Source: a virus. Taken from it: a stretch of 20,764 nt of DNA. The stretch spans positions 1 to 20,764 of the IMG/VR virus record IMGVR_UViG_3300011118_000827. One strand, written 5' to 3'. How positions within the stretch are numbered: position 1 is the stretch's first letter; each line of letters opens with the position of its first letter. Shown one piece after another: positions 474 through 19,608 of the stretch. Both the position numbers and the translations under genes were made by a program. The notes beneath the pieces were generated by a model. That model was not told where the DNA came from. It worked only from the letters and a program-made list of their open reading frames with translations, and ran no database searches.

Positions 474-2054
474 ATGGCAAAATGGTATAACCCTACAACG
501 TGGGGCGAACAAGAACCTCAAACACTTGATGAATCAATAAGTGCTTTTGAGCAGAAACCAAAACCTAAATTAAGAGACACACTTGCTACGAGAGGTGAAG
601 GTTGGGAAAACATTATGGACATTCCCGGCATTGGCCACGTAGGACTACAGTCATTTAATATGTTTTATAACACCTATATTAATAGGCAGTTTGAAAATGA
701 AGTAGAAAGAATTTTTGAGTATAGAAACATGGCGTATCAAGCAGAGATCGCTGACGTTATTGAAGATGCTGTCAATGAATCAACCCAAGAGGACGACGAT
801 GGAAAAACTTTCCATCTTGATATAATTGATAAAGAATTACAAAAGAATGAAAACATTGTTAATAACTTAACAAAACAATTTAATAAACTCTTCATTAATA
901 AACTAGATATGCCTAACTTTGTATGGGAACTTTTCTATAAGTACATGGTTGATGGTAGATGTTACTATGAAAGAATTATAGACACAAGACATCCAAAGAA
1001 TGGAATAATCGGAATCAAAAGTCTTCCATCTGAAACAATGGATTACATTTATGATCCATTAGCTGGTACAGTAATACTTTACATGCAGTACTTAAAACCA
1101 AAACCAAAGAAACCCGCCACCGTTGAAGAAGCAATGAAAAGACATGGTGATGATCTAATTGTTTTTCAACCAGATCAAATTGGTTTTGTTAACTATGGTA
1201 TCTTTGGTTCAACAAAATACAATATTTTTGGGTACCTTGAAAAAGCAAGGGTCCCATTTAACCAGTTAAAATTACTTGAAACATCAGTAATCATATATAG
1301 AATTGTAAGGTCGCCCGAGCGATTCGTTTTCAGAATTGACACAGGCAACATGCCAAGAGATAAAGCCCTAAAGTACGTAGAGAAGATCAAGCAGAAAATG
1401 AGTAAAAAGCAGACTTACGATCCTCGCTCGGGCACCCTTACAAACGAACCAGAAATTATGAGCATCCTTGAAAACTTTTATCTACCTCAGTCCGCTGAAG
1501 GTAGAGGTAGTCAAATTGAATCCATTGGTGGATTCTCACCAGGCTTTACAGAGCTTGATGACATTTACTACTTCGCAAGGAAACTCTATCGAGCATTGAA
1601 ATATCCGGCTTCACGTGTCCAAGCCGCACAAGAAAGTAGATCAGCAGATATTACTTTTAATCAAGGCGACACAGGTACAATTTCAAGGGATGAAATCAAA
1701 TGGAGTAAGTTCCTTGAAAGACAACAAAAGAAATTCTGTCAAGATTTTACAGATATGTTTCTACTTCATTTGAACTTTTTAGGTATTAAAAAACAATATG
1801 GATTAGATTCAGAAAAAATCAAAGTATCTATGAACGCACCGTCAAGATACAAAGAACAAATGGATCAAAGTTTCTTAAGTACTCGTTTTGATAACTATAC
1901 TGCATTAGCTGATAGAGAAGAAATGAGTAAGTCATATCTTATGAAAAGATATTTGAAATGGGATGATGAAGAAATCAAAGCCAACGTTGAAGGCATGAAG
2001 AAAGACAAAGAGCTAGGATTCAGAGTAGAAGAAGGAGGCGGAGGTTCATGGTAA
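474..2054 (+). CDS. gp20: Portal vertex protein (T4 gp20-like)
   Basis: 526 residues, matching the size of T4 gp20 (524). The portal forms the dodecameric ring at one capsid vertex, nucleates prohead assembly and is the DNA channel used by the terminase. Family hallmarks by recall are the segment around residues 265-300 (VIIYRIVRSPERFVFRIDTGN) followed by a Lys-rich stretch and YDPRSG, then SILENFYLP, GRGSQIE and the C-terminal YFARKLYRAL block near residues 360-375. The ATG at 474 has AGGAG nine bases upstream. The C-terminus is Gly-rich (EEGGGGSW). It opens the head block portal-core-protease-scaffold-capsid, the same order as T4 genes 20-67-21-22-23. Confidence 0.95.
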   Translation: MAKWYNPTTWGEQEPQTLDESISAFEQKPKPKLRDTLATRGEGWENIMDIPGIGHVGLQSFNMFYNTYINRQFENEVERIFEYRNMAYQAEIADVIEDAVNESTQEDDDGKTFHLDIIDKELQKNENIVNNLTKQFNKLFINKLDMPNFVWELFYKYMVDGRCYYERIIDTRHPKNGIIGIKSLPSETMDYIYDPLAGTVILYMQYLKPKPKKPATVEEAMKRHGDDLIVFQPDQIGFVNYGIFGSTKYNIFGYLEKARVPFNQLKLLETSVIIYRIVRSPERFVFRIDTGNMPRDKALKYVEKIKQKMSKKQTYDPRSGTLTNEPEIMSILENFYLPQSAEGRGSQIESIGGFSPGFTELDDIYYFARKLYRALKYPASRVQAAQESRSADITFNQGDTGTISRDEIKWSKFLERQQKKFCQDFTDMFLLHLNFLGIKKQYGLDSEKIKVSMNAPSRYKEQMDQSFLSTRFDNYTALADREEMSKSYLMKRYLKWDDEEIKANVEGMKKDKELGFRVEEGGGGSW

Positions 2055-3866: not shown

Positions 3867-5090
3867 ATGGACGTTAGAGACCTAGTCAAAAAATGGGAAG
3901 GTGTTCTCAGTGAGGGTTCGGACATTAAGTCTGATAAAGTAAAGAAAAGTACTGCCATCATGTTAGAGAATCAACACAACTACCTCATGGAGCAAACCGC
4001 TTGGGGTAATGACTCATTTGGTACTGGTGACGGTCGTGGTCTGGCTAATTGGCCAACCTCAGGTATGTTTAACAAAATCGCAGTTCCGATGGTTAGACGT
4101 ACTTTCCCAGAATTAGTTGCCCATCAACTAGTTGGTGTTCAACCTTTAACCGGTCCTGTAGGACTTGCTTTTGCCCTAAGGTTTAGAGCAGGTACGACAG
4201 CCGGAAGTTATGTAGCAAACGTTACAGAACTTGGTTACAATACCATCGACAGCACTTATTCAGGTTCTTATATCACCTCCGCTGGTGAAGCTTTAGGTTC
4301 TAAAGCTGGTAGCGGTGTAGGGGATGATATTGGACTTGGTGTAGGTTCTGGACAACATATTCGCGAAGTCAACTTGACCGTTGAAAAAGTACAAATTGAA
4401 GCAAAAACCCGTAAACTCAGAAGCCGTTGGTCCCTCGAAGTCGCTCAAGACTTGAAAGCTATGCACGGTCTTGACCTTGAGGAAGAAATGATGGATATTC
4501 TGGCTTACGAAATTACCCAAGAAATCGACCGTGAATTGATCGCAGCAATCGACGCTACTGTAACAGGTATCGTAGGTTATGACACAAACTGGGACTTTTT
4601 GGCATCAGCTCAAGGAGTTAAAGGTAGATGGGAGATGGAGCGTTATCGTGAATTATATCACAATATTATCCGTAAAACCCAAGACATTGCAATCAACACA
4701 CGTAGAGGATCAGGTAATTGGATCGTAGGTAACCCACGAGGCGTTGCTATTCTTGAAACACTGGCAGCTTTCACAATTGCCCCAGTTCCAAGTGATGTAA
4801 CAACCCAACCAACTGGTGTATCCAGGATAGGTTCCCTTGACGGAAGATTAGTAGTTTACCGTGATACTTTCGAAAGTAGAGATCAATTCATTATCGGCTA
4901 TAAAGGCCCAAGTGAATACGATACTGGTGTAATTTATTTACCTTACATTCAGCTACTCGCAAGTAAAGCAGTATTCGAAAATTCATTCCATCCAACCGTA
5001 GGTTTGATGAGTCGTTATGCGATTCACAACCATATGTTCGGAGCAAGAGAATACTACCAGAAGATCAACCTAGTGAATATTCCGCAATAA
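3867..5090 (+). CDS. gp23: Major capsid protein (T4 gp23-like)
   Basis: 407 residues, shorter than T4 gp23 (521) but within the range of distant T4-like capsid proteins. It forms the hexamers of the head shell with the HK97 fold. The block around residues 75-110 (MVRRTFPELVAHQLVGVQPL, then TGPVGLAFALRFRA) is the best-known signature of gp23-family proteins (MVRRA-P-L-A-D--GVQPM-GPTGLIFAMR). The C-terminal part includes the Phe/Tyr-rich segment typical of the P-domain. A possible maturation site of the gp21 type (L-S-E before Gly17) lies near the N-terminus, suggesting a short propeptide. Strong AGGAGG ribosome site at 3853-3858 before ATG 3867. A strong terminator follows 20 bases after the stop. 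Confidence 0.96.
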   Translation: MDVRDLVKKWEGVLSEGSDIKSDKVKKSTAIMLENQHNYLMEQTAWGNDSFGTGDGRGLANWPTSGMFNKIAVPMVRRTFPELVAHQLVGVQPLTGPVGLAFALRFRAGTTAGSYVANVTELGYNTIDSTYSGSYITSAGEALGSKAGSGVGDDIGLGVGSGQHIREVNLTVEKVQIEAKTRKLRSRWSLEVAQDLKAMHGLDLEEEMMDILAYEITQEIDRELIAAIDATVTGIVGYDTNWDFLASAQGVKGRWEMERYRELYHNIIRKTQDIAINTRRGSGNWIVGNPRGVAILETLAAFTIAPVPSDVTTQPTGVSRIGSLDGRLVVYRDTFESRDQFIIGYKGPSEYDTGVIYLPYIQLLASKAVFENSFHPTVGLMSRYAIHNHMFGAREYYQKINLVNIPQ

Positions 5091-5151: not shown

Positions 5152-5180
5152 TTTACAATCAACTATTTTTGTAGTATAAT
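5152..5180 (+). promoter_or_regulatory. Sigma70-type promoter before terS-prkA
   Basis: TTTACA (5152-5157), a 17-base spacer and TATAAT (5175-5180): a near-consensus host housekeeping promoter directly after a terminator. The predicted start is near 5187, with ribosome site AGGAGG at 5195-5200. Over 32 bases (5150-5181) it agrees with the promoter at 7731-7762 at 25 positions, including shared TCAA and TTGT in the spacer, so the two look like one promoter class. Confidence 0.85.
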
Positions 5181-5187
5181 ATAAATA
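5180..5187 (+). promoter_or_regulatory. Late promoter motif TATAAATA overlapping the sigma70 -10 box
   Basis: An exact TATAAATA starts on the last T of the TATAAT box. If functional it lets terS and prkA be transcribed both by the host-type holoenzyme and by the phage late holoenzyme. The sequence is directly visible; function is inferred. Confidence 0.45.
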
Positions 5188-5210: not shown

Positions 5211-5642
5211 ATGGAAATAAACAGAGATAATTTATCAGACGTATTTGATATGGATGAAATAGAAAGAGATGTAGAACGTCTTACCCTCGTTTCGAAAACA
5301 GACCCGGAAGAGTCATTGAAAGAGAACATTGACAGAGCGAATAGGATATTGGATAGGGTAGAAAACGAACTAGAAAACGGTAACTTTACTGCAAGGATGG
5401 TAGAGGTAGCCGGAAACATTCTCAATACTGTAACAAACTCTAGCAAGGAATTGATTACCAATATTAACTATAAGAAGTATTTACAAATTCGCGAGTCTAT
5501 GGTAAAATATAAGTATGATGAATTGGAAGCCAAGCAACAGAAATTTCGTTCTCCAACAAGTCAAAACATTATCGTCTCCAACAGGGAAGATATAATGAAG
5601 CTAATAAACGGAGAAGTGGAACAAATTGAAGACACCAACTAA
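5211..5642 (+). CDS. gp16: Probable small terminase subunit (T4 gp16-like)
   Basis: 143 residues (T4 gp16: 164), mostly helical and acidic. Compared with gp16 from memory, the order of features matches: a variable acidic N-terminus, a central helical pair (MVEVAGNILNTVTNSSKELI, residues 63-82, resembling the gp16 segment [21 protein letters not shown]), a Lys-rich linker, then a short C-terminal motif (QNIIVSNREDIMKLI, resembling gp16 NIQNATVFMGSPTELMDEI). The small terminase forms a ring that recognises DNA and regulates the gp17 motor. The large-subunit gene is 6 kb downstream, beyond the PrkA-YhbH-SpoVR module, although the two subunits are usually adjacent. ATG 5211 has AGGAGG at 5195-5200. 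It is the first gene after its promoter and runs to within 23 bases of prkA. Confidence 0.7.
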   Translation: MEINRDNLSDVFDMDEIERDVERLTLVSKTDPEESLKENIDRANRILDRVENELENGNFTARMVEVAGNILNTVTNSSKELITNINYKKYLQIRESMVKYKYDELEAKQQKFRSPTSQNIIVSNREDIMKLINGEVEQIEDTN

Positions 5643-5664: not shown

Positions 5665-7644
5665 ATGTTCGAAAACAACGCCGATTTTATGCAAGTAATT
5701 CTTGACCAGCAAAAAGGAACTGGTTTCAAGGAATGGGAAGGAACTGCTATCGACTACTTAGGTGAAGTCGAAAAAAGACCGGAAATCGCAAATTTCTCAC
5801 CCGGCAGAATCTATAATATGATTATGAAGGTTGGGACCACACCGGTAAAAGAAGAATTAAAAACAAGAGGTTATGAGGACTTAGTTCAATATAACTTCTT
5901 CAAGGATAAAATTTTCGGTACCCTTGAACCAATCCATGATCTTATGAGATTTTTGAAAGCCGCCGCAAGAAGAACCGAAACTGGTAAAAGGATTCTTATC
6001 ATGGTTGGTCCTGTATCTTCAGGTAAATCAACTATAGCTTCCTTAATCAAAAGAGGATTAGAAAAAGATTGTACCCCAAAGTTTGCAATCAAAGGCTGTC
6101 CTATTCACGAAGAAGCACTTCACTTAATTCCACTTGATGATCGACCATACTGGGAAGATCGACTTGGAGTTAAAATTGAAGGTACCCTTTGCCCAGTTTG
6201 TATGCAGATGTTGGATGAAAAGTATACAGAAGAAGTGGATGGTGAAGAAGGAAAAATCGTTCAATGGCATAGTGTCCCGGTTGAAGCTGTTAAAATCAGC
6301 GAACAACGGAGAACATGTATCGGTACATTCCAACCAAGTGATCCAAAATCACAGGACATTACCGAGTTAATTGGTCGAGTTGACATGACTCAAATGGCTC
6401 GTTGGGGTGAAACTGACCCACGAGCATATAAGTTTGATGGTGAACTTCAAGTTGCCAATGGTGGCATGATTGAGTACATCGAAATTTTGAAAGCCGATAC
6501 GAAATTTCACTATGTTCTTATCACCGCCGCACAAGAACAGGTTATCAAAGCACCTGGTTTCCCGCAGATGTATATTGATACTTTGATTCTGTCTCACACA
6601 AACCAGACAGAGTTTGACTCATTCAAATCGGACAAAAAGAATGAGGCTCTGCATGACAGGATGTACAAAGTACATGTACCATGGAACTTAAGAGTGGATG
6701 ATGAAATTAAGATTTATCAAAAGATGATTAATGAGTCTGATTTCAGAAGCATCCACATCGCCCCTGGAACTCTAAGGGTTGCCGCCGAGTTTGCAGTACT
6801 TTCAAGGTTGACCAAGTCAACTAAAGTTTCCAACAAAATCACCAAGATGAAACTCTACAATGGAGAAATTCCAACAGAGTTTAAAAAGACTGACATAGAT
6901 ATTAAGAAGTTAAGAGAAGAAGGACGAGATCAGGGTGAGGGTATGTACGGTATTTCACCAAGGTTCGTTATCAATGCTCTTAACCTCGCTCTTGGTGCCA
7001 AAGAAGAAAAGAAGTGTATCAATCCGATTGACATGATTAGAGCACTTAGAGATAACTTCGACCATCACATTGGTATCGCTGATGAAGATGTCGAAACCTT
7101 TATGAATATTCTGACTGGTAACAAAGAGTCAGTCGCCGCTGAGTATAAAGACTGGGCCAAAAAAGAAGTCAACATGGCTTTCTTATGGGCCTATGATGAA
7201 CAAGCTCAGGAACTTTTTGAAAGGTATATGACAAATGCTGTCGGTTTCTGTAAGAACGAACAGATCAAGGATTCAGTTACCGAAGAGTATCATACACCCG
7301 ATGAAAAGATTATGAGGTCTATTGAAGAACTTATCGGAGTTCCGATGGAGGCAAGAAAAGAATTTAGAAATGGAATTTTCGTTTATAAATCTGACTTCTT
7401 GTCCGAAGGTAAGGACTTCACTTACAAAGATTACGATCCTTTGAGAGAAGGTATTGAAAAGAAGTTAATGGGTGATTTGAAAAATGTTGTATCTCTTTCA
7501 ATTGCCGATACAGCAAGTACTAATCCGAAGTCTAAAGAAAGAAGGTCAGCCGCCCTTGAAATCCTGATTGAAAAGGGATACTGTGAAAAATGCGCGAGCA
7601 TGTTGCTTTCCTTTATAGGAGAAGTACTCAGGAAGGAAGACTAA
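5665..7644 (+). CDS. prkA: PrkA-type AAA+ serine protein kinase
   Basis: 659 residues from ATG 5665, close to bacterial PrkA/YeaG (about 630-645). PrkA has an N-terminal AAA+ ATPase domain and a C-terminal region with reported protein kinase activity; in Bacillus it acts in sporulation and in E. coli in stationary phase and nitrogen starvation. Visible features: Walker A GPVSSGKST (115-123); FAIKGCPIHEE just after it; CPVC (Cys pair near 175); the PrkA signature RRTCIGTFQPSDPKSQDITELIGRVD (split here only for naming, residues about 214-239); ARWGETDPRAYKFDGEL; a Walker B-like GGMIEYIE (266-273); and HTNQTEFDSF with NEALHDRMY near 310-335, all conserved in PrkA. The TTG at 5626 would overlap terS, but ATG 5665 has AAAGGA at 5650-5655 and is preferred. 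It shares a transcript with terS and ends before a terminator. It looks intact, not decayed. Confidence 0.95.
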   Translation: MFENNADFMQVILDQQKGTGFKEWEGTAIDYLGEVEKRPEIANFSPGRIYNMIMKVGTTPVKEELKTRGYEDLVQYNFFKDKIFGTLEPIHDLMRFLKAAARRTETGKRILIMVGPVSSGKSTIASLIKRGLEKDCTPKFAIKGCPIHEEALHLIPLDDRPYWEDRLGVKIEGTLCPVCMQMLDEKYTEEVDGEEGKIVQWHSVPVEAVKISEQRRTCIGTFQPSDPKSQDITELIGRVDMTQMARWGETDPRAYKFDGELQVANGGMIEYIEILKADTKFHYVLITAAQEQVIKAPGFPQMYIDTLILSHTNQTEFDSFKSDKKNEALHDRMYKVHVPWNLRVDDEIKIYQKMINESDFRSIHIAPGTLRVAAEFAVLSRLTKSTKVSNKITKMKLYNGEIPTEFKKTDIDIKKLREEGRDQGEGMYGISPRFVINALNLALGAKEEKKCINPIDMIRALRDNFDHHIGIADEDVETFMNILTGNKESVAAEYKDWAKKEVNMAFLWAYDEQAQELFERYMTNAVGFCKNEQIKDSVTEEYHTPDEKIMRSIEELIGVPMEARKEFRNGIFVYKSDFLSEGKDFTYKDYDPLREGIEKKLMGDLKNVVSLSIADTASTNPKSKERRSAALEILIEKGYCEKCASMLLSFIGEVLRKED

Positions 7645-7685
7645 AATAAATAGCAGACCAGAAATCCGTTGAGCTATTGGAGGTG

Positions 7686-7713
7686 AAAACCCCAGAGAAA
7701 CCTCTGGGGTTTT
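7686..7713 (+). terminator. Intrinsic terminator after prkA
   Basis: AAAACCCCAGAG (7686-7697), loop AAAC, CTCTGGGGTTTT (7702-7713): a perfect 12-bp stem ending in T residues and followed by a T-rich stretch. It separates the terS-prkA unit from the next promoter, 20 bases on, and the symmetric A/T flanks mean it could work in both directions. Confidence 0.93.
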
Positions 7714-7732
7714 CTTATTTGAAGTGAAGTAA

Positions 7733-7761
7733 TTTACATTCAAATACCGTTGTGATATAAT
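7733..7761 (+). promoter_or_regulatory. Sigma70-type promoter before the membrane ORFs-yhbH-spoVR unit
   Basis: TTTACA (7733-7738), 17-base spacer, TATAAT (7756-7761), with TG one base before the -10 (extended -10). It is the sister of the promoter at 5152-5180. The expected start is at about 7767-7769, exactly on the ATG of the first ORF, so that ORF would be read from a leaderless message or not at all. Confidence 0.88.
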
Positions 7762-7766
7762 ACAGT

Positions 7767-8021
7767 ATGAATAAGAAAATTATAAATTTTGTTTTTACAA
7801 TTCTTCTTATAAAGGTGTTTGTCACATCTGGAAGTGGGATAGGATTCGCTTTATTCCTATTATTTTTCTGTGCTGACTGGTTTATAGTATTGTGGTTAAC
7901 CGATAAACTTAATTACGAAAGGAAACAAGATGAAACTCTACAAGGAAAACACAGGGTTTTTCATAAACATGGCTTTCTGGACATTGGCCATATTCACCGA
8001 TCCGATTTGGATGCTGATTAA
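7767..8021 (+). CDS. Small membrane protein, possibly translated leaderless
   Basis: 84 codons from ATG 7767. Residues 5-20 and 24-45 are hydrophobic (VFTILLIKVFV; GFALFLLFFCADWFIVLWL), indicating two membrane segments or a hairpin, followed by a charged, His-rich tail. No ribosome site precedes the ATG, and the promoter start falls on or within a base of it, so translation would need a leaderless mechanism. Its last 92 bases overlap the next ORF in another frame; that ORF has a better start, and the tail here may be read only because the frame is open. No family recognised. The hydrophobic coding over its first 50 codons argues that at least that part is real. Confidence 0.45.
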   Translation: MNKKIINFVFTILLIKVFVTSGSGIGFALFLLFFCADWFIVLWLTDKLNYERKQDETLQGKHRVFHKHGFLDIGHIHRSDLDAD

Positions 8022-8109
8022 AGAAATGGGACCGGCTTGCCTTATTCTGCCGGCTTTTTTCGGATTACTTCTTGGACATTGGGAAGCAGATATTGATTGG
8101 ACAATATAA
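7930..8109 (+). CDS. Small two-segment membrane protein (59 aa)
   Basis: Starts at ATG 7930 with AAAGGA at 7918-7923. Residues about 10-24 (FFINMAFWTLAIFTD) and 34-50 (ACLILPAFFGLLLG) are hydrophobic with a short charged turn, giving two likely membrane helices and an acidic C-terminus (EADIDWTI). Its TAA overlaps the next ATG as TAATG (8107-8111), the usual sign of coupled translation, which supports it as a real gene despite its length and its overlap with the ORF at 7767. Function unknown; position in the yhbH-spoVR transcript suggests a membrane partner of that module or an unrelated small phage function. Confidence 0.65.
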   Translation: MKLYKENTGFFINMAFWTLAIFTDPIWMLIKEMGPACLILPAFFGLLLGHWEADIDWTI

Positions 8110-8306
8110 TGAGAATAATAACTTTATTAACATATATGGGCATATCATTCTATAATGCTCTCATAGAAGGATGGACTGCATTGAAATCCATGTGGATGTG
8201 TTTAGTGTGGATGGCAAATCTCTGCACCTATGAAGTAGAAATAGAGGATGAAGAAGGTAATATAATTCATCACTTCCCACAATTAAATCATGGAGACAAC
8301 GAATGA
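8109..8306 (+). CDS. Small membrane protein with acidic tail (65 aa)
   Basis: Begins at ATG 8109, overlapping the previous stop (TAATG); the in-frame TTG at 8097 is unlikely. Residues 2-20 and 24-42 are hydrophobic with several Trp and Met (GWTALKSMWMCLVWMANL), followed by an acidic cytoplasm-like tail (EVEIEDEEGN) and a His/Asn-rich end. It ends as ATGA with the next gene, so translation is coupled on both sides. No family recognised. It is the third of a run of three membrane ORFs ahead of yhbH. Confidence 0.7.
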   Translation: MRIITLLTYMGISFYNALIEGWTALKSMWMCLVWMANLCTYEVEIEDEEGNIIHHFPQLNHGDNE

Positions 8307-8500
8307 AAATTGAAGTTACTTTAACTGTAGTAGAAAATGAGGCAGTTGAATATACTATCACAACAGGTGGAGAAACCTGGGCTGATATTCATACTATAAT
8401 TGATAATGCCGAAGACATAAATCTTCGTAAAAACAAAACTCAAAGGAAAAAAGTACTTGGGTTTATAGAAAACGGAAAGAAAAATGAAAGGAAAAGATAA
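8303..8500 (+). CDS. Small hypothetical protein (65 aa), basic C-terminus
   Basis: ATG 8303 overlaps the previous TGA (ATGA). Residues 1-20 alternate hydrophobic and polar (IEVTLTVVENEAVEYTITTG), typical of beta strands; residues 25-40 are probably helical; the end is strongly basic (KKNERKR). There is no membrane segment, unlike the three preceding ORFs. It ends directly at the yhbH start codon without a gap, so the two are translated together. Function unknown. Confidence 0.7.
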   Translation: MKIEVTLTVVENEAVEYTITTGGETWADIHTIIDNAEDINLRKNKTQRKKVLGFIENGKKNERKR

Positions 8501-9829
8501 ATGACAACGGTTTTTCATGACGACTGGGATTTAAGTGAGAAAGGTAAAAAGGATGCCGAACGTCACCAAGATAAAATCGACGATGCCATTCGAAAGAATG
8601 TTCGTGATGTTATTGGTGAGGAGTCAATCATTACTCAAAAGGGTAAACGAAAAGTTCGAATCCCTGTAAAGGGTATGAAAGATTACAAATTCGTTCATGG
8701 TGATAACAAAGGACCCACCGCCGGTGTTGGACAGGGTGATGGAGAAGCCGGTGATATTATTGGTCAAAGACCAAGACAAGATGGTAATGGTGATCCGGGT
8801 AAACCTGGTGACCAAAGAGGTGAAGACTATATGGAAGCAGAAGTCGATATTGACTACCTGCTTAAAATAATGTTCGAGGACCTTGGTCTACCCTGGATTG
8901 AGGAGAAGACTAAAGCCGCACAAATGGTTCCTAAAGGATGGAAGTTTGAAACAATTTCCAAAAAAGGTATCATGCCGAGGCTACATAAGAAAAGAACTAT
9001 GATGGAGGCAGTCAAACGAAATATCATGTTGGCCGCTGAAATTATGAGAGTAACCGGTGTTGATGAGCCAACAGCATACAAGGCTTTGAACCAAGCCTTC
9101 GGTGATGTAAATTATGCTATTGACATCATTGAAAAGGATGAAGTCACATCAGATCAAGATACATTAGTTATCAATGAGGATGACTTACGATACAAACAAA
9201 TTGAGCAGGATGTTGAATATCATTCTAATGCTGTAGTCATAGCAATGATGGATGTATCTTACTCAATGGGTAGAGAAAAGAAGTACTTATGTAGAAGTCT
9301 TCTTTTCTGGTTGACTGAGTTCTTAAAGAAACGATATGACCATGTAGAAATTAAATTCATTCAGCATACAACAGAAGCACTAGTTGTTGATGAAGATACA
9401 TTCTTTCACACTCATACAACTGGTGGTACCATGTGTTATACTGCTTTCGAAAGAGCTAACTACATGATCGACACCGAATATCCTCTGAATGAATGGAATG
9501 TATACTGTATCTATGTTGGTGATGGTGAGGATTTTGAACCAAAGAAAACTGTTACTCATATAGATATTATGCTTAAGAAAGAAATCAACATGTTAGGTTA
9601 TGTTGAAATTGATCTTGACCATGAAGAAGATGATAGTTTTGGTTATAGAGATATGATGCGAACTCTTCTGGTAGAAATTAAAAAGAAATGGAACTTCTTC
9701 CATAACCGTGAGAAGCAAACTGACTTCTATAAAAATGAGAAGAAAAGATTCCTTTGTGCAGTCATTCGAAACAAAACCCATGTGTGGCCAGCCTTGAAAC
9801 ACATGCTATTTGAAAAGGAGAAGAAATAA
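8501..9829 (+). CDS. yhbH: YhbH/YeaH-type DUF444 protein with VWA domain
   Basis: 442 residues. DUF444 proteins (Bacillus YhbH, E. coli YeaH) are encoded beside prkA and spoVR and are thought to act with them. The N-terminus (WDLSEKGKKDAERHQDKI, then IRKNVRDVIGEESII and KVRIPVKGMKDYKF) matches the Bacillus YhbH pattern rather than the enterobacterial one. Residues about 68-110 form a Gly/Asp-rich disordered linker, followed by EDYMEAEVDIDYLL. The C-terminal von Willebrand A domain has an intact metal site: Asp251-x-Ser253-x-Ser255 (DVSYS), a TGGT loop near 305, and Asp341 in YVGDGEDF. AAA+ ATPases often work with VWA partners (MoxR-type pairs), which fits pairing with PrkA. ATG 8501 follows the previous stop directly, with AAAGGAAA as ribosome site. 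It ends TAATG with the next gene. Confidence 0.94.
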   Translation: MTTVFHDDWDLSEKGKKDAERHQDKIDDAIRKNVRDVIGEESIITQKGKRKVRIPVKGMKDYKFVHGDNKGPTAGVGQGDGEAGDIIGQRPRQDGNGDPGKPGDQRGEDYMEAEVDIDYLLKIMFEDLGLPWIEEKTKAAQMVPKGWKFETISKKGIMPRLHKKRTMMEAVKRNIMLAAEIMRVTGVDEPTAYKALNQAFGDVNYAIDIIEKDEVTSDQDTLVINEDDLRYKQIEQDVEYHSNAVVIAMMDVSYSMGREKKYLCRSLLFWLTEFLKKRYDHVEIKFIQHTTEALVVDEDTFFHTHTTGGTMCYTAFERANYMIDTEYPLNEWNVYCIYVGDGEDFEPKKTVTHIDIMLKKEINMLGYVEIDLDHEEDDSFGYRDMMRTLLVEIKKKWNFFHNREKQTDFYKNEKKRFLCAVIRNKTHVWPALKHMLFEKEKK

Positions 9830-10044
9830 TGGAAATATTAAAAGAAAAACAATTAGACAGTGGTGATTATCTATGGGATATAGAATGCACTGAAGAAGAA
9901 ATTGTACACTTCAGAGCATATGCACTGGAAAAAGGACAGAAAATCCAGGACATGAGCGACGAGGAAATAATCCAATTCTCTGTCTTGGGAATGTTAAAAG
10001 AACAGATTGATAAAGACGAAAGGATTGAAAATGAACAAGACTGA
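9829..10044 (+). CDS. Small acidic protein between yhbH and spoVR (71 aa)
   Basis: Starts at ATG 9829 within TAATG and overlaps the spoVR start by 14 bases, so it is translationally locked between the two. The protein is acidic and mostly helical (CTEEEIVHFRAYALEKGQ, then MSDEEIIQFSVLGMLKEQ), with no membrane segment, Cys motif or known domain that I recognise. Bacterial loci do not normally have a gene here, so it may be a phage-specific adaptor, but only its position supports that. Confidence 0.75.
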   Translation: MEILKEKQLDSGDYLWDIECTEEEIVHFRAYALEKGQKIQDMSDEEIIQFSVLGMLKEQIDKDERIENEQD

Positions 10045-11605
10045 GCTACAACGACTTGTAAAAATAGAGGATAGGATATATCAGATCGCGAAAGATTTTG
10101 GACTTGACTTCTGTGATATTGAATTTGATATTATTCCAGACCAGAAAATGCTAGAGATTATGGCTTATCGAATCCCTGGTAACATTTCAAACTGGAAATA
10201 TGGTCGTGACTATGAACGACTCAGAACTATCCATGAAAAAGTTCATGCTGGTCTTCCATTAGAAGTCGTTATAAACTCAGACCCATCAAGAGCATATCTG
10301 ATGAAAGACAATACTCTCGCAATCCAAGCACTAGTCATGGCCCATGTTGTTGGTCACGTTGCTTTCTTCACAATGAATAAGTACTTTCAAAATACAAATA
10401 AGGATATTATTCCTTATTTGAGTGAAGCAACAAAACGATTTAACAAATATGAAAGAATGTATGGCATAAATGAGGTTGAAAGAATAATTGATGCTGGTCA
10501 TTCAATTCAGTTTCACTCAAGTCCATTTGATAACGAAACTGAAGATGAAAAAAGAGATAGAATATATGAACAAAAAATGAAACAGGCTCACACTAAAAGA
10601 GCTACTGAATTTGAGGATATTGTTCCTGTTGATGAGTCATACAAAGATATGGATGTTTCTCTTTTCAATCAACGACTATGGAGAGCATTGAAGTTAAAGA
10701 CACCGATTGAACCAACTGAAGATTTATTGAGATACATAATTGATAACTCCAATTCTCTTGAAAACTGGCAAAAGGATGTTCTTGAAACAATGAGGGGAGA
10801 AGGTAGATACTTCTGGCCTCAAATGAGAACGAAGTATATGAACGAAGGTTTCGCAACTTTCTGGCATGAAAAAATTATGAAGCAATTGTTTGATGAAGAG
10901 TTGCTTAACATGACAGACCATGCTCAGTATAACTTTTCTAACTCGCTAGTCAAGGCCGCTAACAGAACAGCCTTGAATCCATATCTTGTTGGTTCCAAAA
11001 TGTGGGAAGATATAGTAAACAGATGGGACAAAGGTAGACATGGCAGAGAATGGAACCAATGCAATGATAGAAAACAAAAAGAAGTCTGGGACAAGCATGA
11101 CATGAAAGGCAAGGAGAAAATGTTCGAAATAATGAGGACCCATACAGACTGGCTCTTTATGAAAGGATATTTAACTCCAGATTTGGTTGATGAAATGGAA
11201 CTTTACATCTTTGTTGAAAGAACAACTCCAATGACTGAGGACTTAGTCATTACAAAACAAAGAGCTGAGAAAATTGCTGAATTGATTATAACAAGTTTCA
11301 CTCATAGTCATGTACCGAAGGTTGAAGTCACAGATGGAAACTACGATCAAAAAGGATATTTGTTCTTGACTCACAGATGGTCCGGAGCAAACCTCAAACA
11401 GGATTACTGTAAAAAGACCTTGCAACATATTGCTAACATTTGGGGAACCAACTGTTATCTTGAATCAAAAGATGGTCCTGATAAAAGATTATTATATAAG
11501 GTTGAAAGAAAAGCAAAACTTGGTGGTCCATCAAAAACCGGCCAACCACCATTAAATACTCCACCATCAAGTAATGTTTGGTCTACAATGACTGTTTCTG
11601 AATAA
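10031..11605 (+). CDS. spoVR: SpoVR/YcgB family protein
   Basis: 524 residues from ATG 10031, against about 470 in Bacillus SpoVR and 510 in E. coli YcgB. SpoVR is needed for normal spore cortex in Bacillus; its biochemical activity is not established. Family hallmarks: the N-terminal FDIIPDQKMLEIMAYRIPG block (about 33-51), SNWKYGRDYERLR (54-66), LEVVINSDPSRAYLMKDN, and MAHVVGHVAFF with His105 and His109 followed by NKYF. The Glu/His-rich central part includes YMNEGFATFWHEKIM (near 274-288), another conserved block with possible metal ligands. The last 40 residues are Pro/Ser-rich and probably disordered. The TTG at 10007 is a poorer start; ATG 10031 has AAAGGA at 10018-10023. It is the last gene of its unit and looks complete. 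Confidence 0.95.
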   Translation: MNKTELQRLVKIEDRIYQIAKDFGLDFCDIEFDIIPDQKMLEIMAYRIPGNISNWKYGRDYERLRTIHEKVHAGLPLEVVINSDPSRAYLMKDNTLAIQALVMAHVVGHVAFFTMNKYFQNTNKDIIPYLSEATKRFNKYERMYGINEVERIIDAGHSIQFHSSPFDNETEDEKRDRIYEQKMKQAHTKRATEFEDIVPVDESYKDMDVSLFNQRLWRALKLKTPIEPTEDLLRYIIDNSNSLENWQKDVLETMRGEGRYFWPQMRTKYMNEGFATFWHEKIMKQLFDEELLNMTDHAQYNFSNSLVKAANRTALNPYLVGSKMWEDIVNRWDKGRHGREWNQCNDRKQKEVWDKHDMKGKEKMFEIMRTHTDWLFMKGYLTPDLVDEMELYIFVERTTPMTEDLVITKQRAEKIAELIITSFTHSHVPKVEVTDGNYDQKGYLFLTHRWSGANLKQDYCKKTLQHIANIWGTNCYLESKDGPDKRLLYKVERKAKLGGPSKTGQPPLNTPPSSNVWSTMTVSE

Positions 11606-11688: not shown

Positions 11689-13236
11689 ATGGCAATAAGA
11701 TATGATGAGCAGTATGTAAAGAGACCAAGGGCAGAGCTAGAGTATGAACCAGATCAGATAATTGAACTACAAAAATGTATGGCGAGTGTAACGTACTTCC
11801 TTAAATACGTTAAGATTGTAAATCCAGATAAAGGGGAAATTTTATTCGAACCCAGAGATTATCAATGGGAACTCCTGGAAAAATTCCAGAAGCATAGATT
11901 CAATGTTGGATTATGTTCAAGACAGTCTGGTAAAACTACTATCGTTTCTGCTTATGTTCTATGGTATGCTATTTTTCATGCAGATAAAAATATAGGTATT
12001 GTTTCAAATAAAGAGTCAAGTGCTAAGATGATTCTAGCAAGACTCAAAAGAATGTATGAGTCATTACCAATTTGGTTAAAGCCAGGTGTTACTGAGTACT
12101 CAAAAACATTTACTACGTTCGATAATGGAACAAGAATAGTTATATCAGCAACCTCACCCGATGCCTTTCGTGGTGAGTCAATGAACCTACTATGTTGCGA
12201 CGAGTTCGCATTCGTCCCCAGTATAGCAGCCGAAGACTTCTGGGCTGCTAACTATCCTACCATTTCCGCATCCAAAGAAGCAAAAATCATAATCATATCC
12301 ACTCCAAATGGTTTGTTCAATATATTCCATAGAATATGGTCCCAGGCCAAAGCAGGTCTAAATACTTTTGTTACCACAAAAGTAAGCTATGAAAGAGTGC
12401 CAGGCAGAGATGAAGAGTGGGCAAAAGAACAGGTCAAAAACCTTGGAATGTTAAAATTCAATCAAGAGTTTGCAGTTGAGTTCATTGGTTCTACAAATAC
12501 CGTTCTTAACTCAGAAACTATTAAAGTACTTTTGGCTTCTCATAAAGACCCTAACTACATGGACTTAGAAGATAGATTAAGAATTTGGGAGAAACCAAAA
12601 GAAAGATCAGTATATGCCATGGGAGTAGACCCATCAAAAGGAACAGGTGAACACTGGTCTACAATACAGATTTTTGAAATAATATCTTTAAATCCTGTAA
12701 GAATGGATCAGGTTGCCGTGTTCGAACATAACTTAACCGATGTATATGACTTCTGTGATATAATTGATAGACTCTCAATGTACTATAACGGCGCATATAT
12801 TATGTGTGAAAATAATGGTGAGGGTTCAGCAGTTATTCAAAGACTATGGTGGGATATAGAAAATGAAAATCTAGTTAACTCTGGTGCTAAGACAGCAAGC
12901 CTTGGTATTAGAGCTTCAAGAATAACAAAACCAAAAGCTGTTTTACTTATGAAGAAACTTATTGAAGATGGTAGTGTAAAAATAATTGACAAAAACACCA
13001 TCGAACAACTCAGTTCTTTTATTGAAGAAAAAAACAAATTCTTTGGTAAAGATAAACCAGATGACTTAGTCGCCGCTCTTTATTGGTGTTTATACTTATT
13101 AGAAATGGACATCCTTGATGAAAGTTATGGGTTTATTAAAAGAGAAGACGATGAAGATGGATGGGGTGTCTTATCAGACGTAGAATCAGACGTAGAAGAT
13201 TGGACTTGGTTGACAGACACGGAAGTTTTTGAATAA
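11689..13236 (+). CDS. gp17: Terminase large subunit (T4 gp17-like)
   Basis: 515 residues (T4 gp17: 610). It packages DNA into the prohead with an N-terminal ATPase and cuts concatemers with a C-terminal RNase H-like nuclease. ATPase motifs: adenine/Q region YQWELLEKF (58-66), Walker A SRQSGKTT (77-84), Walker B LLCCDE with Asp171 and Glu172, and the coupling motif IIISTPNG near 200-207. Nuclease residues: Asp314 (GVDPSKG), Glu374 (CENNGEG) and Asp458 or Asp459 (KPDDLVAAL). All catalytic residues are present. The N-terminal extension of T4 gp17 is shortened. ATG 11689 follows GGGGAGAAAGGA. The gene is separated from terS by the PrkA-YhbH-SpoVR region. Confidence 0.97.
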   Translation: MAIRYDEQYVKRPRAELEYEPDQIIELQKCMASVTYFLKYVKIVNPDKGEILFEPRDYQWELLEKFQKHRFNVGLCSRQSGKTTIVSAYVLWYAIFHADKNIGIVSNKESSAKMILARLKRMYESLPIWLKPGVTEYSKTFTTFDNGTRIVISATSPDAFRGESMNLLCCDEFAFVPSIAAEDFWAANYPTISASKEAKIIIISTPNGLFNIFHRIWSQAKAGLNTFVTTKVSYERVPGRDEEWAKEQVKNLGMLKFNQEFAVEFIGSTNTVLNSETIKVLLASHKDPNYMDLEDRLRIWEKPKERSVYAMGVDPSKGTGEHWSTIQIFEIISLNPVRMDQVAVFEHNLTDVYDFCDIIDRLSMYYNGAYIMCENNGEGSAVIQRLWWDIENENLVNSGAKTASLGIRASRITKPKAVLLMKKLIEDGSVKIIDKNTIEQLSSFIEEKNKFFGKDKPDDLVAALYWCLYLLEMDILDESYGFIKREDDEDGWGVLSDVESDVEDWTWLTDTEVFE

Positions 13237-15579: not shown

Positions 15580-15760
15580 AGATATATTAAGTAAAATTAA
15601 TAAGCTTCTAATAGAAGAAGTTGACATGGGTAAATGGAAATGTCCATGTGGATGGGTCTATGATCCAAAAGATCATGGAGGAAAACCATTTAGTGAATGG
15701 CCAGGTCCATGTCCAGAAAGCGGTACACCAAAAAGTAAATTTAAAAAGTTAGGCGATTAA
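15572..15760 (+). CDS. Small rubredoxin-like protein with incomplete Cys set (62 aa)
   Basis: ATG 15572 is preferred (GGAAGG at 15555-15560); GTG 15560 sits on the ribosome site. After an 18-residue helix comes KWKCPCGWVYDPKDHGG, then WPGPCPESGTPKSKF, which follow the rubredoxin pattern (W-x-C-x-x-C-G-Y-x-YDP ... W-x-CP-x-CG-x-x-K-x-x-F). The first knuckle is C24-P-C26 with one residue missing, and the fourth Cys is Ser50, leaving three Cys plus His35. It may bind zinc or iron atypically, or be a structural remnant. It is coupled to the gp15-like gene by TAATG. Electron transfer is doubtful given the lost Cys. Confidence 0.7.
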   Translation: MSKDILSKINKLLIEEVDMGKWKCPCGWVYDPKDHGGKPFSEWPGPCPESGTPKSKFKKLGD

Positions 15761-16569
15761 TGAAAGGTTATTACTACTATGAAGTAATCAGGAAAATGAC
15801 TATCCAATTTCTTGATGCTTTCAATGATATACAAGTTAAAAGATTGCAGCCAGATAGCAGTACTGTAAGAGAGCTAGTACATGTTCCAATTAAGCTTGCG
15901 GTAAAAGAAAAATTCTGGTATTGGCTACAAGAACGTAAAGACGATGAAGTACTTCCAATGATAACTACTTGGTTGAGTACAATTGATTATGCTTCTGATA
16001 GACAAGTCAATACCTTTTATGAGTTATGCAAAAGTACTGATCCCGAAACTGGGACTTATGAAAAGTTTCCACATCCAACACCATATAACTTTACTTACTC
16101 TATGAACATTTGGTCCCTTTATCTATCTGATATTGACCAGATACTGGAACAAATTCTACCGTTCTTTGCACCACATATTTTTATACGTATTCGTATAGAT
16201 GAATTAGATATTGAATATGATATTAAAGTTATCTTTCAAAGCTGCACACCAGAACTAAGCCTTGAAATGCCTGACGACCAATACAGAGTAGTTAATTACT
16301 CACTTGAATTTGTTGCTCAAGCCTGGTTATTTAAACCAGCTGTAGAAGAAGGCGGTCTGATAAATTGTATATACACAAATTACTTTCCAACAGTAGAAGG
16401 ATTTGCTAGATCACTCACAGACACATCAAGTACTTTTTCATCTGGTGCTTCCGGTGGCGAGGCAACACAACTTTGTTGTTATTACGACCCAGATGCACAA
16501 ATCATATGTGATTATGAAACGTTTGGGCCTGGTGAATCATCAGGTGATGCCTGTCAGGAGGATACATAA
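15760..16569 (+). CDS. gp15: Tail completion / sheath stabiliser protein (T4 gp15-like)
   Basis: 269 residues, like T4 gp15 (272). gp15 forms the hexameric ring at the top of the tail, ends sheath and tube growth and joins the tail to the head. Matching blocks: the start (M-x-GYYYYEVIRKMTIQFLDAF, NDIQVKR, like GYFYNSSFRRYATLMGDLFSNIQIKR), VPIKLAVKEKFWYW, YSMNIWSLYLSDIDQILEQI, LPFFAPH, and IKVIFQSC with NYSLEFVAQAWLFKPA near 175-215. The C-terminal 50 residues are Ser/Gly/Cys-rich and family-variable. ATG 15760 overlaps the previous stop (TAATG). It ends TAATG with the tube-like gene. Confidence 0.88.
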   Translation: MKGYYYYEVIRKMTIQFLDAFNDIQVKRLQPDSSTVRELVHVPIKLAVKEKFWYWLQERKDDEVLPMITTWLSTIDYASDRQVNTFYELCKSTDPETGTYEKFPHPTPYNFTYSMNIWSLYLSDIDQILEQILPFFAPHIFIRIRIDELDIEYDIKVIFQSCTPELSLEMPDDQYRVVNYSLEFVAQAWLFKPAVEEGGLINCIYTNYFPTVEGFARSLTDTSSTFSSGASGGEATQLCCYYDPDAQIICDYETFGPGESSGDACQEDT

Positions 16570-17090
16570 TGCCATTAGTTTGCGCCGATAGTGGATTGGT
16601 AAATTTGGGTAAAGCGACACCAAGTAACTATGAGTTAATCATTCCAAAAATACCAACAGAAACTACAATATCTGCAATCAATCCACTCATACTAAATATT
16701 TTTAGTACTGTTATACCTAGTGTTTCCATAGCCGAAGAAGTATTGAGTTATCAAGCGGCCCAGACAAAACGTGCACAGGGACCATTGGTCTATGAACAAA
16801 TGTCAGTGAGTTTTGTCGTTGACTCTTTATTTGCAGACTGGAAAATTTTAGTAAACTGGTTGAAGTATATAAATGATAACTCAGAAAAAATGGCAGAGCT
16901 GCATAAAGAATATTCAGTAGACGCAACGCTTGCAATTACTGATAACTACAGACAACCACTTATGGCTATAAGATTTGTAAGCCTCTGGCCTATAACTGTA
17001 GCTGAAGTAGGATTGAGTCAAAGAGAAGGTGAGAGCCAGTTAGAATGTTCAGCGACATTCAACTACGATTACTTTTTAATAGAAGATTAA
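16569..17090 (+). CDS. Tail-tube-fold protein upstream of the sheath (gp19/gp54-like)
   Basis: 173 residues. The pattern YELIIPKIP (22-30), IFSTVIPSVSIAEEV (43-57), RAQGPLVYEQMSVSFVVDS and WKILVNWLKYIND resembles the tail tube and tube-like baseplate proteins of T4-like phages (FxVxIPxx ... VPSITL ... P-x-x-x-EPLNITFLVDEDLKNYLEIHNWM). A second tube-type gene, the likely main tube protein, lies after the sheath at 19054. This copy may be the tube initiator (gp48/gp54-like) or a tail cap component; I cannot decide. Start ATG 16569 within TAATG, AGGAGG at 16557-16562. It ends before a late promoter pair. Confidence 0.6.
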   Translation: MPLVCADSGLVNLGKATPSNYELIIPKIPTETTISAINPLILNIFSTVIPSVSIAEEVLSYQAAQTKRAQGPLVYEQMSVSFVVDSLFADWKILVNWLKYINDNSEKMAELHKEYSVDATLAITDNYRQPLMAIRFVSLWPITVAEVGLSQREGESQLECSATFNYDYFLIED

Positions 17091-17097
17091 TAAAAAC

Positions 17098-17121
17098 TAT
17101 AAATATGACTAAATATAAATA
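17098..17121 (+). promoter_or_regulatory. Tandem late promoter motifs before the sheath gene
   Basis: Two exact TATAAATA octamers at 17098-17105 and 17114-17121, 16 bases apart, ahead of the sheath gene, whose product is needed in the highest tail copy number. Either or both may act as late promoters. Confidence 0.6.
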
Positions 17122-17139
17122 GTAAAGTGAACAAAAGCT

Positions 17140-17158
17140 TGCCTGAGAAATTCAGGCA
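17140..17158 (+). other. 5'-leader hairpin of the sheath gene
   Basis: TGCCTGA (17140-17146), loop GAAAT, TCAGGCA (17152-17158): a 7-bp stem with no T-tract, ending three bases before the AGGAGG ribosome site (17161-17166). A transcript from the TATAAATA motifs would carry it near its 5' end, where it could protect the message or shape ribosome access. Confidence 0.6.
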
Positions 17159-17172
17159 TAAGGAGGAAAGAA

Positions 17173-18999
17173 ATGGCACTATACTTAAGCCCACTAGTAG
17201 ATGTCAACGAGATTGACCTATCTACTACAATTCCAGCTGTGGCAACCTCCATAGGTGTATTGGTTTTAAGAAATACATGGAAAGGTCCGGAACTAAAAAG
17301 ACAACTAGTAAACAATATAGATGAGTTGATTGAGATATTTGGTGAACCAGAAGATGCATCATATCAAGATATTTTTTCTGGTATAGGATTCTTGAAATAT
17401 GGTATTAATTTGTATTGCACAAGAGCATTAGCTCCAAGTGCAACATTTGCTGGTCTATATGGAATAACAGCATCAGCAGGAACACTAACCCAATATACTT
17501 CTGGAAATGCTTATCAATTAAGTGACTTCGCATCAGAGGACTCAGATGAGTTCAATAACGAAAGCACTGTATTTGATCCAGGCAGGCCAGACTTTGGAGC
17601 CGAAGTAGCTTTCATTGCGAAGGACAGAGGTGAATGGGGTGACTACGTACAAATAGCTTATGTAGGCAGAGATGTTTATAACGGTGTTAGAAGAACTAGT
17701 GATGGATCATCAGGAGGAGGAACATCCGCTGCATCGTTAGGTATTTCAGCAAGTCTTTATGATGATATTGCTGATATTGATAAAGCCTTTAACACTGATG
17801 ATTCCGGGAAAAAACAATTCTTAGTAATTGTAAGAACAGCACAACAAGAAGACTTGAATCTAAATCCTGTTCCTTATCAAGTAGTAGAGTCTCATTTAGT
17901 ATCAACGGACCCACGATCCATTGATGATGGAGGCCAAAATACATATGCACCAATTTGGATTAACATAGTTTCAGATGTTATAAGAATGGCTGCATCACAG
18001 TCTGCGGGCTTTGATAATAAAAACATGAGTGCTGTTTATACAGCTGACTACTCAAATATGGGTGGGGGTGTAAGAGATCAAGGAGATTCTGTAACTGACG
18101 CAGATATTATAGAAGCCTATGAGTTATACTGTGACCCAGAAGTAGTAGATGTTAACATCTTTATTGATGGAGCCAAATCAACAACTGTTCAAACAGAAAT
18201 CGCAGCTATTTGCGAGAGTAGAGCAGATGCAATGGCCTGTCTTGATGTACCATACTCACTAGTAGTATTTAATAAAGGAAACGAAGCAACAGATTGTAGA
18301 GATTTTAGAATTGGAGAACATAGTACTTATAACTTAAATCTAAATACAAGTTATGCAGCACTATATGCTCAATGGCTAAATGTATATGATAAATGGAATG
18401 CAGTATACCGTTGGGTACCATCTTCGGGATACGCTGCAGGAATTTTCGCAAACACAGATGATGTAACCGATCCTTGGTTTGCACCTGCAGGACTCAACAG
18501 AGGTATTCTAAATAATATTAGAAAGCTAGCTTGGAATCCAACTCTTGGTGAAAGAGATATTCTTTACAAGAACGGTTTGAATCCAATTGTATCATTCGCC
18601 GGACAAGGAAAAGTTGTCTGGGGTCAAAAAGATATGCTGGATAGGAACTCTGCTTTTAATAGAATTAACGTTAGAAGATTATTTATGATTATAGGAAAAT
18701 CAGTATCAACAGCATTGAAGTACTTTCTATTCGAACCTAATGACTCATTCACAAGGTTACAAATTATCAACATGGTCGATCCTTTCCTTAGAGATATTAA
18801 GGGTAGAAGGGGAGTCTATGACTACATGATAGTTTGTGATGAAAGAAATAACACACCAGAAAGAATAGATAGAAACGAATTGTGGTGTGACATTTACATC
18901 AAACCTACAAGAGCAGCAGAATTTATAGTACTTAACTTAATAGCTACCAAGACTGGAGCATCATTCACAGAATTGATAGCGGCACAATCACCACAATAA
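17173..18999 (+). CDS. gp18: Tail sheath protein (T4 gp18-like)
   Basis: 608 residues (T4 gp18: 659). Subunits form the contractile tube around the tail tube. N-terminal signature SPLVDVNEIDLSTTIPAVATSIGVLVLRNTWKGP (residues about 6-39) and the following NNIDELIEIFGEP, and the C-terminal fold with LFEPNDSFTRLQIINMVDPFLRDI, GVYDYMIVCDERNNTPERIDRNELWCDIYIKPTRAAEFIVLNL are classic for contractile sheaths (given here as marks of position, about 515-600). The middle (residues 100-420) is the variable surface domain. Start ATG 17173 with AGGAGG at 17161-17166. A GC-rich hairpin and the tube gene follow. Confidence 0.96.
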   Translation: MALYLSPLVDVNEIDLSTTIPAVATSIGVLVLRNTWKGPELKRQLVNNIDELIEIFGEPEDASYQDIFSGIGFLKYGINLYCTRALAPSATFAGLYGITASAGTLTQYTSGNAYQLSDFASEDSDEFNNESTVFDPGRPDFGAEVAFIAKDRGEWGDYVQIAYVGRDVYNGVRRTSDGSSGGGTSAASLGISASLYDDIADIDKAFNTDDSGKKQFLVIVRTAQQEDLNLNPVPYQVVESHLVSTDPRSIDDGGQNTYAPIWINIVSDVIRMAASQSAGFDNKNMSAVYTADYSNMGGGVRDQGDSVTDADIIEAYELYCDPEVVDVNIFIDGAKSTTVQTEIAAICESRADAMACLDVPYSLVVFNKGNEATDCRDFRIGEHSTYNLNLNTSYAALYAQWLNVYDKWNAVYRWVPSSGYAAGIFANTDDVTDPWFAPAGLNRGILNNIRKLAWNPTLGERDILYKNGLNPIVSFAGQGKVVWGQKDMLDRNSAFNRINVRRLFMIIGKSVSTALKYFLFEPNDSFTRLQIINMVDPFLRDIKGRRGVYDYMIVCDERNNTPERIDRNELWCDIYIKPTRAAEFIVLNLIATKTGASFTELIAAQSPQ

Positions 19000-19053: not shown

Positions 19054-19608
19054 ATGCCATCATTAGATAGTTTCAATATTGAAAAATTCAAAGCAAAGTT
19101 TGGAGACGGAGCGAAAGGTTCCCTGTTCTATTTTCAGCCTCAATGGCCAGCCGGTGTAGAAACTTCATTGAGTCCAGAAGATGTTATTTATTTGGTTAAA
19201 ACGGCAACGATTCCAGATACGACACTCGACGAAGCAACTATCAACTGGCAAGGATTTGACTACAAGTATGCAACTAAACATACATATGCCGACCTAGCAG
19301 TAACATTCTATGTAGACTTAGAAGCAAAAGTAAGAATGTTATTTGAAAACTGGTCAAATCTAGTACATGATCCTTTATCAAATGTATGGGCGACAACAGC
19401 CGAGTATATGATGGATCAAAAACTACAGATGGTTGGTTATCAAGGTCAAACAATTATGGAATTTACTATGCACCACGCATATCCAAAAGCAATTGGAACA
19501 ATTGCTATGGATTATGCTTCAAATGAATATCTTACATTTGATGTAACATTTTCATATCTATACCATACATTGTCGTTCAACGAAACAGGTGGAGCAGTAA
19601 ACGTATAA
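19054..19608 (+). CDS. gp19: Tail tube protein (T4 gp19-like)
   Basis: 184 residues (T4 gp19: 163). It forms the inner tail tube through which DNA is delivered. It lies directly after the sheath gene, as in T4. Visible pattern: FYFQPQWPAG, VIYLVKTATIPDTTLDEATI (about 46-65), then a strand-rich part with DLAVTFYVDLEAKVRMLFENW (residues 90-110), WATTAEYMMDQKLQMVGYQG and YPKAIGTIAMDYASNEYLTFDVTFSY at the end; the late YPxxIGxIxMDYxSNE-LxTFxVTFxY motif is typical of tube proteins. Start ATG 19054 with AGGAGAG upstream. Another tube-fold gene lies at 16569. Confidence 0.9.
   Translation: MPSLDSFNIEKFKAKFGDGAKGSLFYFQPQWPAGVETSLSPEDVIYLVKTATIPDTTLDEATINWQGFDYKYATKHTYADLAVTFYVDLEAKVRMLFENWSNLVHDPLSNVWATTAEYMMDQKLQMVGYQGQTIMEFTMHHAYPKAIGTIAMDYASNEYLTFDVTFSYLYHTLSFNETGGAVNV

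Follow-up and report, generated by a model that had tools for sequence, protein, structure and literature searches.

The protein families PrkA, YhbH and SpoVR, which have been linked to starvation and sporulation, occur in bacteria as linked genes (prkA-yhbH-spoVR, or yeaG-yeaH-ycgB). Here we examine the same trio in an IMG/VR virus contig, IMGVR_UViG_3300011118_000827, of which a stretch of 20,764 bases (hereafter the window) was analysed. The phage trio resembles the bacterial system in that the three families are the same, the genes are linked in the order found in Bacillota contigs and the active residues are kept. In contrast to the bacterial system, it falls below the equivalog cut-offs, forms a clade of its own and lies in what appears to be a phage late operon rather than in a stress or sporulation regulon.

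That such families exist and that some phages encode them is already known from annotation. The Thermus phages phiYS40, TMA, phiLo, MN1 and Lalka8/27a/27b encode the same families, but they represent other phage lineages, have a separate PrkA clade and carry the genes in the order YhbH-SpoVR-PrkA; their records list each gene by itself, as serine kinase, SpoVR or hypothetical. The Ralstonia jumbo phage RsoM2USA, compared here by its published annotation only, encodes SpoVR (ORF28) and PrkA (ORF30) close together, and in a reading different from ours its authors tie SpoVR to cell-cycle control and chromosome partitioning (PMC8504454).

In the literature searched (most subscription journals lay outside the search) we found no description of the trio as a conserved unit of the terminase operon, and as such it appears undescribed. 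As a rule, AAA+/VWA pairs act on client complexes, which they remodel or activate, NorQ/NorD and RavA/ViaA among them. Such pairs also exist in viruses: a MoxR-VWA pair is reported to be required for tail assembly in the Acidianus two-tailed virus, and jumbo phages of group 2.2 encode a MoxR-VWA pair in which the VWA protein carries a fused metallopeptidase domain, and for this pair a role in virion assembly has been proposed (PMC7824862). The phage trio shares with them an AAA+ and a VWA protein encoded by a virus, but the AAA+ protein is MoxR there and PrkA here, and the peptidase nature of SpoVR is unproven.

The trio between the terminase genes

In the window, the trio is located between the genes for the small (TerS) and large (TerL) terminase subunits, downstream of a T4-type late promoter element, TATAAATA:

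5180..5187, + strand: late promoter element TATAAATA, 23 bp 5' of the TerS start
5211..5642, + strand: TerS, gp16-like small terminase, first gene of the predicted operon (PHROG 445, weak; position before TerL)
5665..7644, + strand: PrkA, 659 amino acids, AAA+ ATPase with PrkA C-terminal domain (Pfam PF08298, PF06798; intact Walker A)
8501..9829, + strand: YhbH/DUF444, 442 amino acids, VWA domain with complete metal-ion-dependent adhesion site, MIDAS (Pfam PF04285, 292 bits)
10031..11605, + strand: SpoVR with SpoVR_C, 524 amino acids (Pfam PF04293, 337 bits; PF24755, 35 bits; AlphaFold2 model with mean confidence, pLDDT, of 86)
11689..13236, + strand: TerL, gp17-like large terminase (Pfam Terminase_6N/6C; PHROG terminase large subunit)

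An earlier note, made from the sequence alone, had placed the trio inside a T4-like structural cluster, and the annotation agrees: by Pfam and PHROG, the window encodes portal, protease, scaffold, gp23 capsid, TerS, PrkA, YhbH, SpoVR and TerL in this order, followed 3' of TerL by head-tail adaptor, neck, sheath stabiliser, tube, sheath, tube and baseplate hub. The match of TerS to PHROG 445 (terminase small subunit) is weak (5e-5), and the four clade members tested all match as well (best 2.6e-6). The PrkA gene starts at ATG 5665, with the TTG of the list of open reading frames (ORFs) further upstream at 5626. The note had also warned that a chimeric contig would undermine any phage function. 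Chimerism is excluded because independent contigs from other samples cross the same junctions: L003 covers portal to neck, with a PrkA 95% identical to that of the window, and the matched proteins of L002 and L084 are 100% identical. Near-identical DNA was sought among isolated phages and none was found.

By the patterns used, at least 238 IMG/VR contigs encode relatives of PrkA and at least 187 encode relatives of SpoVR. Across 70 non-redundant relatives, the order terS-PrkA-YhbH-SpoVR-TerL is complete on one strand in 49 and agrees as far as the contig reaches in the 21 that are cut by a contig end; none is contrary. PrkA and YhbH, and with them an AAA+ and a VWA protein, are encoded together in every complete contig. 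The five-gene block is intact in L100, L126 and L053 despite inversions on both flanks, of the head genes (major capsid protein/portal) on one and of the neck genes on the other, and likewise in L031, where the neck alone is inverted. Given that these 70 relatives had been collected via the trio itself, a second scan was made by TerL alone. Among the matches listed, it gave 37 relatives with at least 46% identity, of which 25 have the trio beside TerL, 4 do not and 8 end too early. Absence of the trio from related phages, together with tight grouping with one bacterium, would in the view of the earlier note speak against a phage function; most relatives keep it. In 43 more distant TerL relatives, again among the matches listed, the trio was not found within the stretch fetched. 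Thermus phage Lalka8, from an unrelated lineage, likewise has the trio flanked by portal and TerL. In phiYS40 the distance from the end of the trio to TerL, there encoded on the other strand, is about 1.2 kb.

The distribution of TATAAATA suggests how the trio is expressed. Four copies in the window are wholly intergenic (1190 bases), all in sense orientation, compared to a mean of 0.22 after shuffling, and none of 1000 shuffles reached four. One copy precedes the scaffold gene, one terS and two the sheath gene, while a fifth, at 439, lies across the boundary at which the first ORF ends and precedes the portal gene. Among non-redundant relatives, the element was found upstream of terS (28/51), TerL (40/67), scaffold (21/38) and sheath (17/17), but hardly ever upstream of PrkA (1/53) and never upstream of YhbH (0/58) or SpoVR (0/66). 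The gap between terS and PrkA is at most 155 bp in 49/49 cases, with a median of 17 bp, and a gp55-type late sigma factor is encoded by five of the six module-bearing contigs of at least 100 kb. Both hallmarks of a T4-type late gene set, TATAAATA and a gp55 sigma factor, are therefore present, the latter in relatives as the window is too short. Because the motif precedes terS and not the trio genes, the terS-PrkA gap is short and gp55 occurs in relatives, terS and the trio are probably transcribed together from the late promoter, late in infection.

Conservation and ancestry of the three proteins

All three proteins are intact, as the earlier note had claimed when it described full-length proteins with an intact Walker A in PrkA, an intact VWA metal site in YhbH and conserved blocks in SpoVR. 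Each scores far over its Pfam cut-offs. PrkA is a single chain with AAA_PrkA (352 bits) and PrkA C-terminal (222 bits) domains and the Walker A motif GPVSSGKS, of which G115, P116, V117, G120, K121 and S122 are invariant. The five MIDAS residues of YhbH (D251, S253, S255, T310 and D341) are invariant across 77 homologues, and in SpoVR, besides the Pfam matches, seven residues (H105, H109, E150, D154, H157, E272 and H279) show no variation, or almost none, across 83 homologues. A profile of phage PrkAs matches the solved PrkA structure 9xip at 2e-165; by Pfam, the AAA+ class is AAA_PrkA only, outside the MoxR class. The kinase label of PrkA has a weak biochemical basis, and kinase and protease activity are disputed even for the bacterial protein: in a 2026 study, both were negligible in purified B. 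anthracis PrkA (PMC13001217). The YhbH model matches VWA domains in the PDB (best E value 1.9e-6), including the MIDAS domain of the AAA+ protein MDN1.

SpoVR is less readily placed. Neither its sequence nor its confident AlphaFold2 model gave a significant match in the PDB (none with E <0.001), and a viral structure library returned a single significant match, which is unnamed. Two of its motifs, HxxxH and NEGxA, are reminiscent of gluzincin peptidases. A fold test for a zinc metallopeptidase of this kind failed, with a few weak zincin matches at a TM score of about 0.1; with the catalytic Glu of HExxH missing as well, the gluzincin idea is a lead only. The placement of inteins suggests that NEGxA is functional. 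Inteins usually occupy conserved active sites of needed proteins, and in two unrelated phages SpoVR contains an in-frame intein directly after NEG(F/W)A; in a third phage, an in-frame intein is located near the MIDAS GGT motif of YhbH. These LAGLIDADG inteins (L057:5282-7975, L062:18935-21586 and L028:12438-15074) are at one and the same conserved spot of SpoVR in two cases and beside the MIDAS motif of YhbH in the third. TerL of L171 has an intein-like insert at its Walker A.

All three proteins miss the NCBIfam equivalog cut-offs (PrkA 297 vs 576 bits for NF011999; YhbH 330 vs 468 bits for the sporulation equivalog TIGR02877; SpoVR 218 vs 679 bits for NF008737), and are therefore divergent homologues of the bacterial proteins rather than copies. 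In a PrkA tree of 98 proteins (quick search, several long branches, bacterial set taken from the best 80 matches), the 29 T4-type phage PrkAs cluster together to the exclusion of every bacterium, with an SH-aLRT of 100 and a stem length of 0.89 changes per column. Tight grouping with one bacterium, which the earlier note had named as the sign of a dead-end insertion, is thus not what the tree gives. The PrkAs of marine, Thermus and huge phages fall outside the T4-type group, so the family has probably been taken up by phages several times. With saturated pairs excluded, the ratio of non-synonymous to synonymous substitution rates (dN/dS) is 0.06-0.11 for PrkA, 0.07-0.15 for YhbH and 0.08-0.14 for SpoVR, close to the values of TerL (0.07-0.10) and the capsid protein. 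For the trio, pairwise protein distances are correlated with those of TerL (r 0.65-0.80) and among the trio members (0.78-0.85). Judged by these sequence comparisons, the trio is maintained by the phages under purifying selection as one old clade and is not a recent capture.

Two sets of candidate sequences were rejected. Contigs L250, L251 and L252, from metagenome-assembled genomes of Halobacteriovorax, Legionellales and Methylococcaceae, were considered as bacterial donors of the marine type of the trio, but their trio falls inside the marine phage clade and they are more likely phage contigs binned wrongly. The YeaG/YeaH genes of Enterobacter phage LAU1 (MN688132.1, L223, 1-3308) are probably host chromosome at the edge of a prophage record, and a possible source of mis-annotation.

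Possible roles of the trio

What the trio does for the phage can be approached from its composition and position. It could well be an AAA+/VWA/SpoVR machine that acts late and serves virion assembly or packaging by remodelling, a reading that we hold to be evenly balanced between right and wrong. PrkA would form an ATP-driven ring, YhbH would dock the substrate via its MIDAS site and SpoVR would serve as effector or adaptor; together they would act on a protein of the virion or an intermediate of its assembly (prohead, portal, scaffold or terminase), remodelling it at head maturation or packaging. Considering the analogy with MoxR-VWA pairs and the genomic position, the trio probably remodels, late in infection, some component of the head, portal or terminase. 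The earlier note had offered assistance in a remodelling step as one option, and the terminase-operon position, the late-promoter pattern and purifying selection support it. A bolder version, in which the trio is a dedicated terminase- or prohead-remodelling machine and thereby a new viral AAA+/VWA assembly system, and the bacterial trio a protein-remodelling machine instead of a kinase pathway, seems unlikely to us.

Several observations weigh against a role in assembly or packaging. In MN1, phiLo and the marine T4-like jumbo phages the trio is tens of kb from the terminase, or no terminase was seen nearby, and the late-promoter motif was not found for the marine group (1/23). The T4-type PrkA contigs L028, L034 and L113 have no recognisable terminase nearby. 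Among the matches listed, L163, L166, L169 and L171 have terS and TerL without the trio at the site, and L166, at 171 kb, has neither PrkA nor SpoVR; set beside the 25 relatives that keep it, this makes the trio clade-typical yet dispensable for some members. In the window, a hairpin (7685-7714) and a sigma70-like site (7733-7761) may split the terS-trio unit. Finally, the position in the operon may reflect timing only and not the substrate, and the role of the trio could differ between phage lineages.

Assembly or packaging is nonetheless most likely a better reading than the reprogramming of starved or differentiating hosts, the other option of the earlier note, which a late-promoter operon coupled to the small terminase does not support. 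Phages of hosts without known sporulation, such as Thermus, encode the family as well. The trio might instead be a stress module of the YeaG/YeaH/YcgB kind that sustains the metabolic output of starved or slow hosts during the late phase, in line with a proposal made for 'sporulation' auxiliary genes in viromes. In bacteria, adapting to nitrogen starvation requires YeaG (PMC4664914); among the sporulation-related viral genes of an oxygen-minimum-zone virome, spoVR ranked first in abundance and was read as a sporulation aid (PMC8940887); and the trio recurs at unlinked genomic positions in other phages. Against these stand the late-promoter operon with terS, the fixed place by the terminase, the TerL-like selection and the absence of the trio from the same site in some sister phages, and we see a rather small but real chance for such a module.

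Alternatively, the proteins might be made late, packaged and injected, and act as the next infection starts. The location of the late operon inside the head cluster would suit this, and late genes with early action are known from T4 internal proteins; however, some 1600 residues in total, including an oligomeric ATPase, would be unusual injected cargo, which makes the idea improbable. We would put no more trust in general late-phase proteostasis, in which the trio acts as disaggregase or chaperone for abundant late proteins and serves no single assembly step. The AAA+ and VWA composition agrees with it, and the gene after PrkA in one marine phage has a weak GroEL-like PHROG match (5e-9), but Pfam finds no chaperonin domain in that gene and strict coupling to the terminase speaks for a specific client. 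As for a neutral hitchhiker or a functionless recent capture, the absence of the trio in some relatives is in its favour; one old clade, low dN/dS, intact active residues and the restriction of inteins to in-frame inserts at conserved motifs all oppose it, and since purifying selection across the clade already contradicts it, we give it almost no credence. An anti-phage defence system was also looked for: the three proteins were tested with PADLOC models, without a match.

How PrkA, YhbH and SpoVR work biochemically in bacteria is unsettled. In a phage with all three beside its packaging motor, the substrate should be one of a small number of virion proteins, which brings the question within reach of experiment. 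A laboratory entry point is offered by isolated Thermus phages that encode the trio, Lalka8 foremost. Additionally, viral spoVR in virome surveys should be read as a sporulation auxiliary gene with caution, given that in this clade it belongs to a structural operon.

Further features of the window and its relatives

Additional features of the window are the following:

474..2054, + strand: T4 gp20-like portal (Pfam Portal_T4, 324 bits; PHROG 213)
3867..5090, + strand: T4 gp23-like major capsid protein (Pfam Gp23, 309 bits)
7685..7714, + strand: possible intrinsic terminator 3' of PrkA, 13-bp stem (pattern match only)
7733..7761, + strand: possible sigma70-type promoter 5' of the small ORFs and YhbH (11/12 with TG extension)
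7767..8500, + strand: small ORFs of 84, 69 and 65 amino acids between PrkA and YhbH (no family matches)
9829..10044, + strand: ORF of 71 amino acids overlapping the SpoVR start (kept only among close relatives)
17098..17121, + strand: two TATAAATA elements before the tail sheath gene (motif before sheath in 17/17 relatives)

Matches of the sigma70 type in the region are not more frequent than expected by chance. The small ORFs between PrkA and YhbH are not kept across the clade, and the 84-residue one occurs in the closest relatives only. In the trio-less sister L166, the interval between terS and TerL contains an endonuclease-like gene and a PIN/PhoH-like gene that bears an intein-like insert (6680-9979).

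In other lineages, the surroundings of the trio differ. L071, L078 and other marine contigs (records G015, G017-G019, G028 and G029) have a second, closely packed YhbH-SpoVR-PrkA operon far from the terminase, and the gp23-type capsid frame of these large marine T4-like phages is about 630-660 amino acids long, with an insert. In two huge-phage contigs, DUF7487 proteins, which are perhaps homing elements, are interleaved with the trio (L062:11854-13800 and 16910-18517; L017:11798-13468 and 15583-17172). Finally, the window encodes two tail-tube-like proteins instead of one (16569-17090 and 19054-19608), on either side of the sheath gene.

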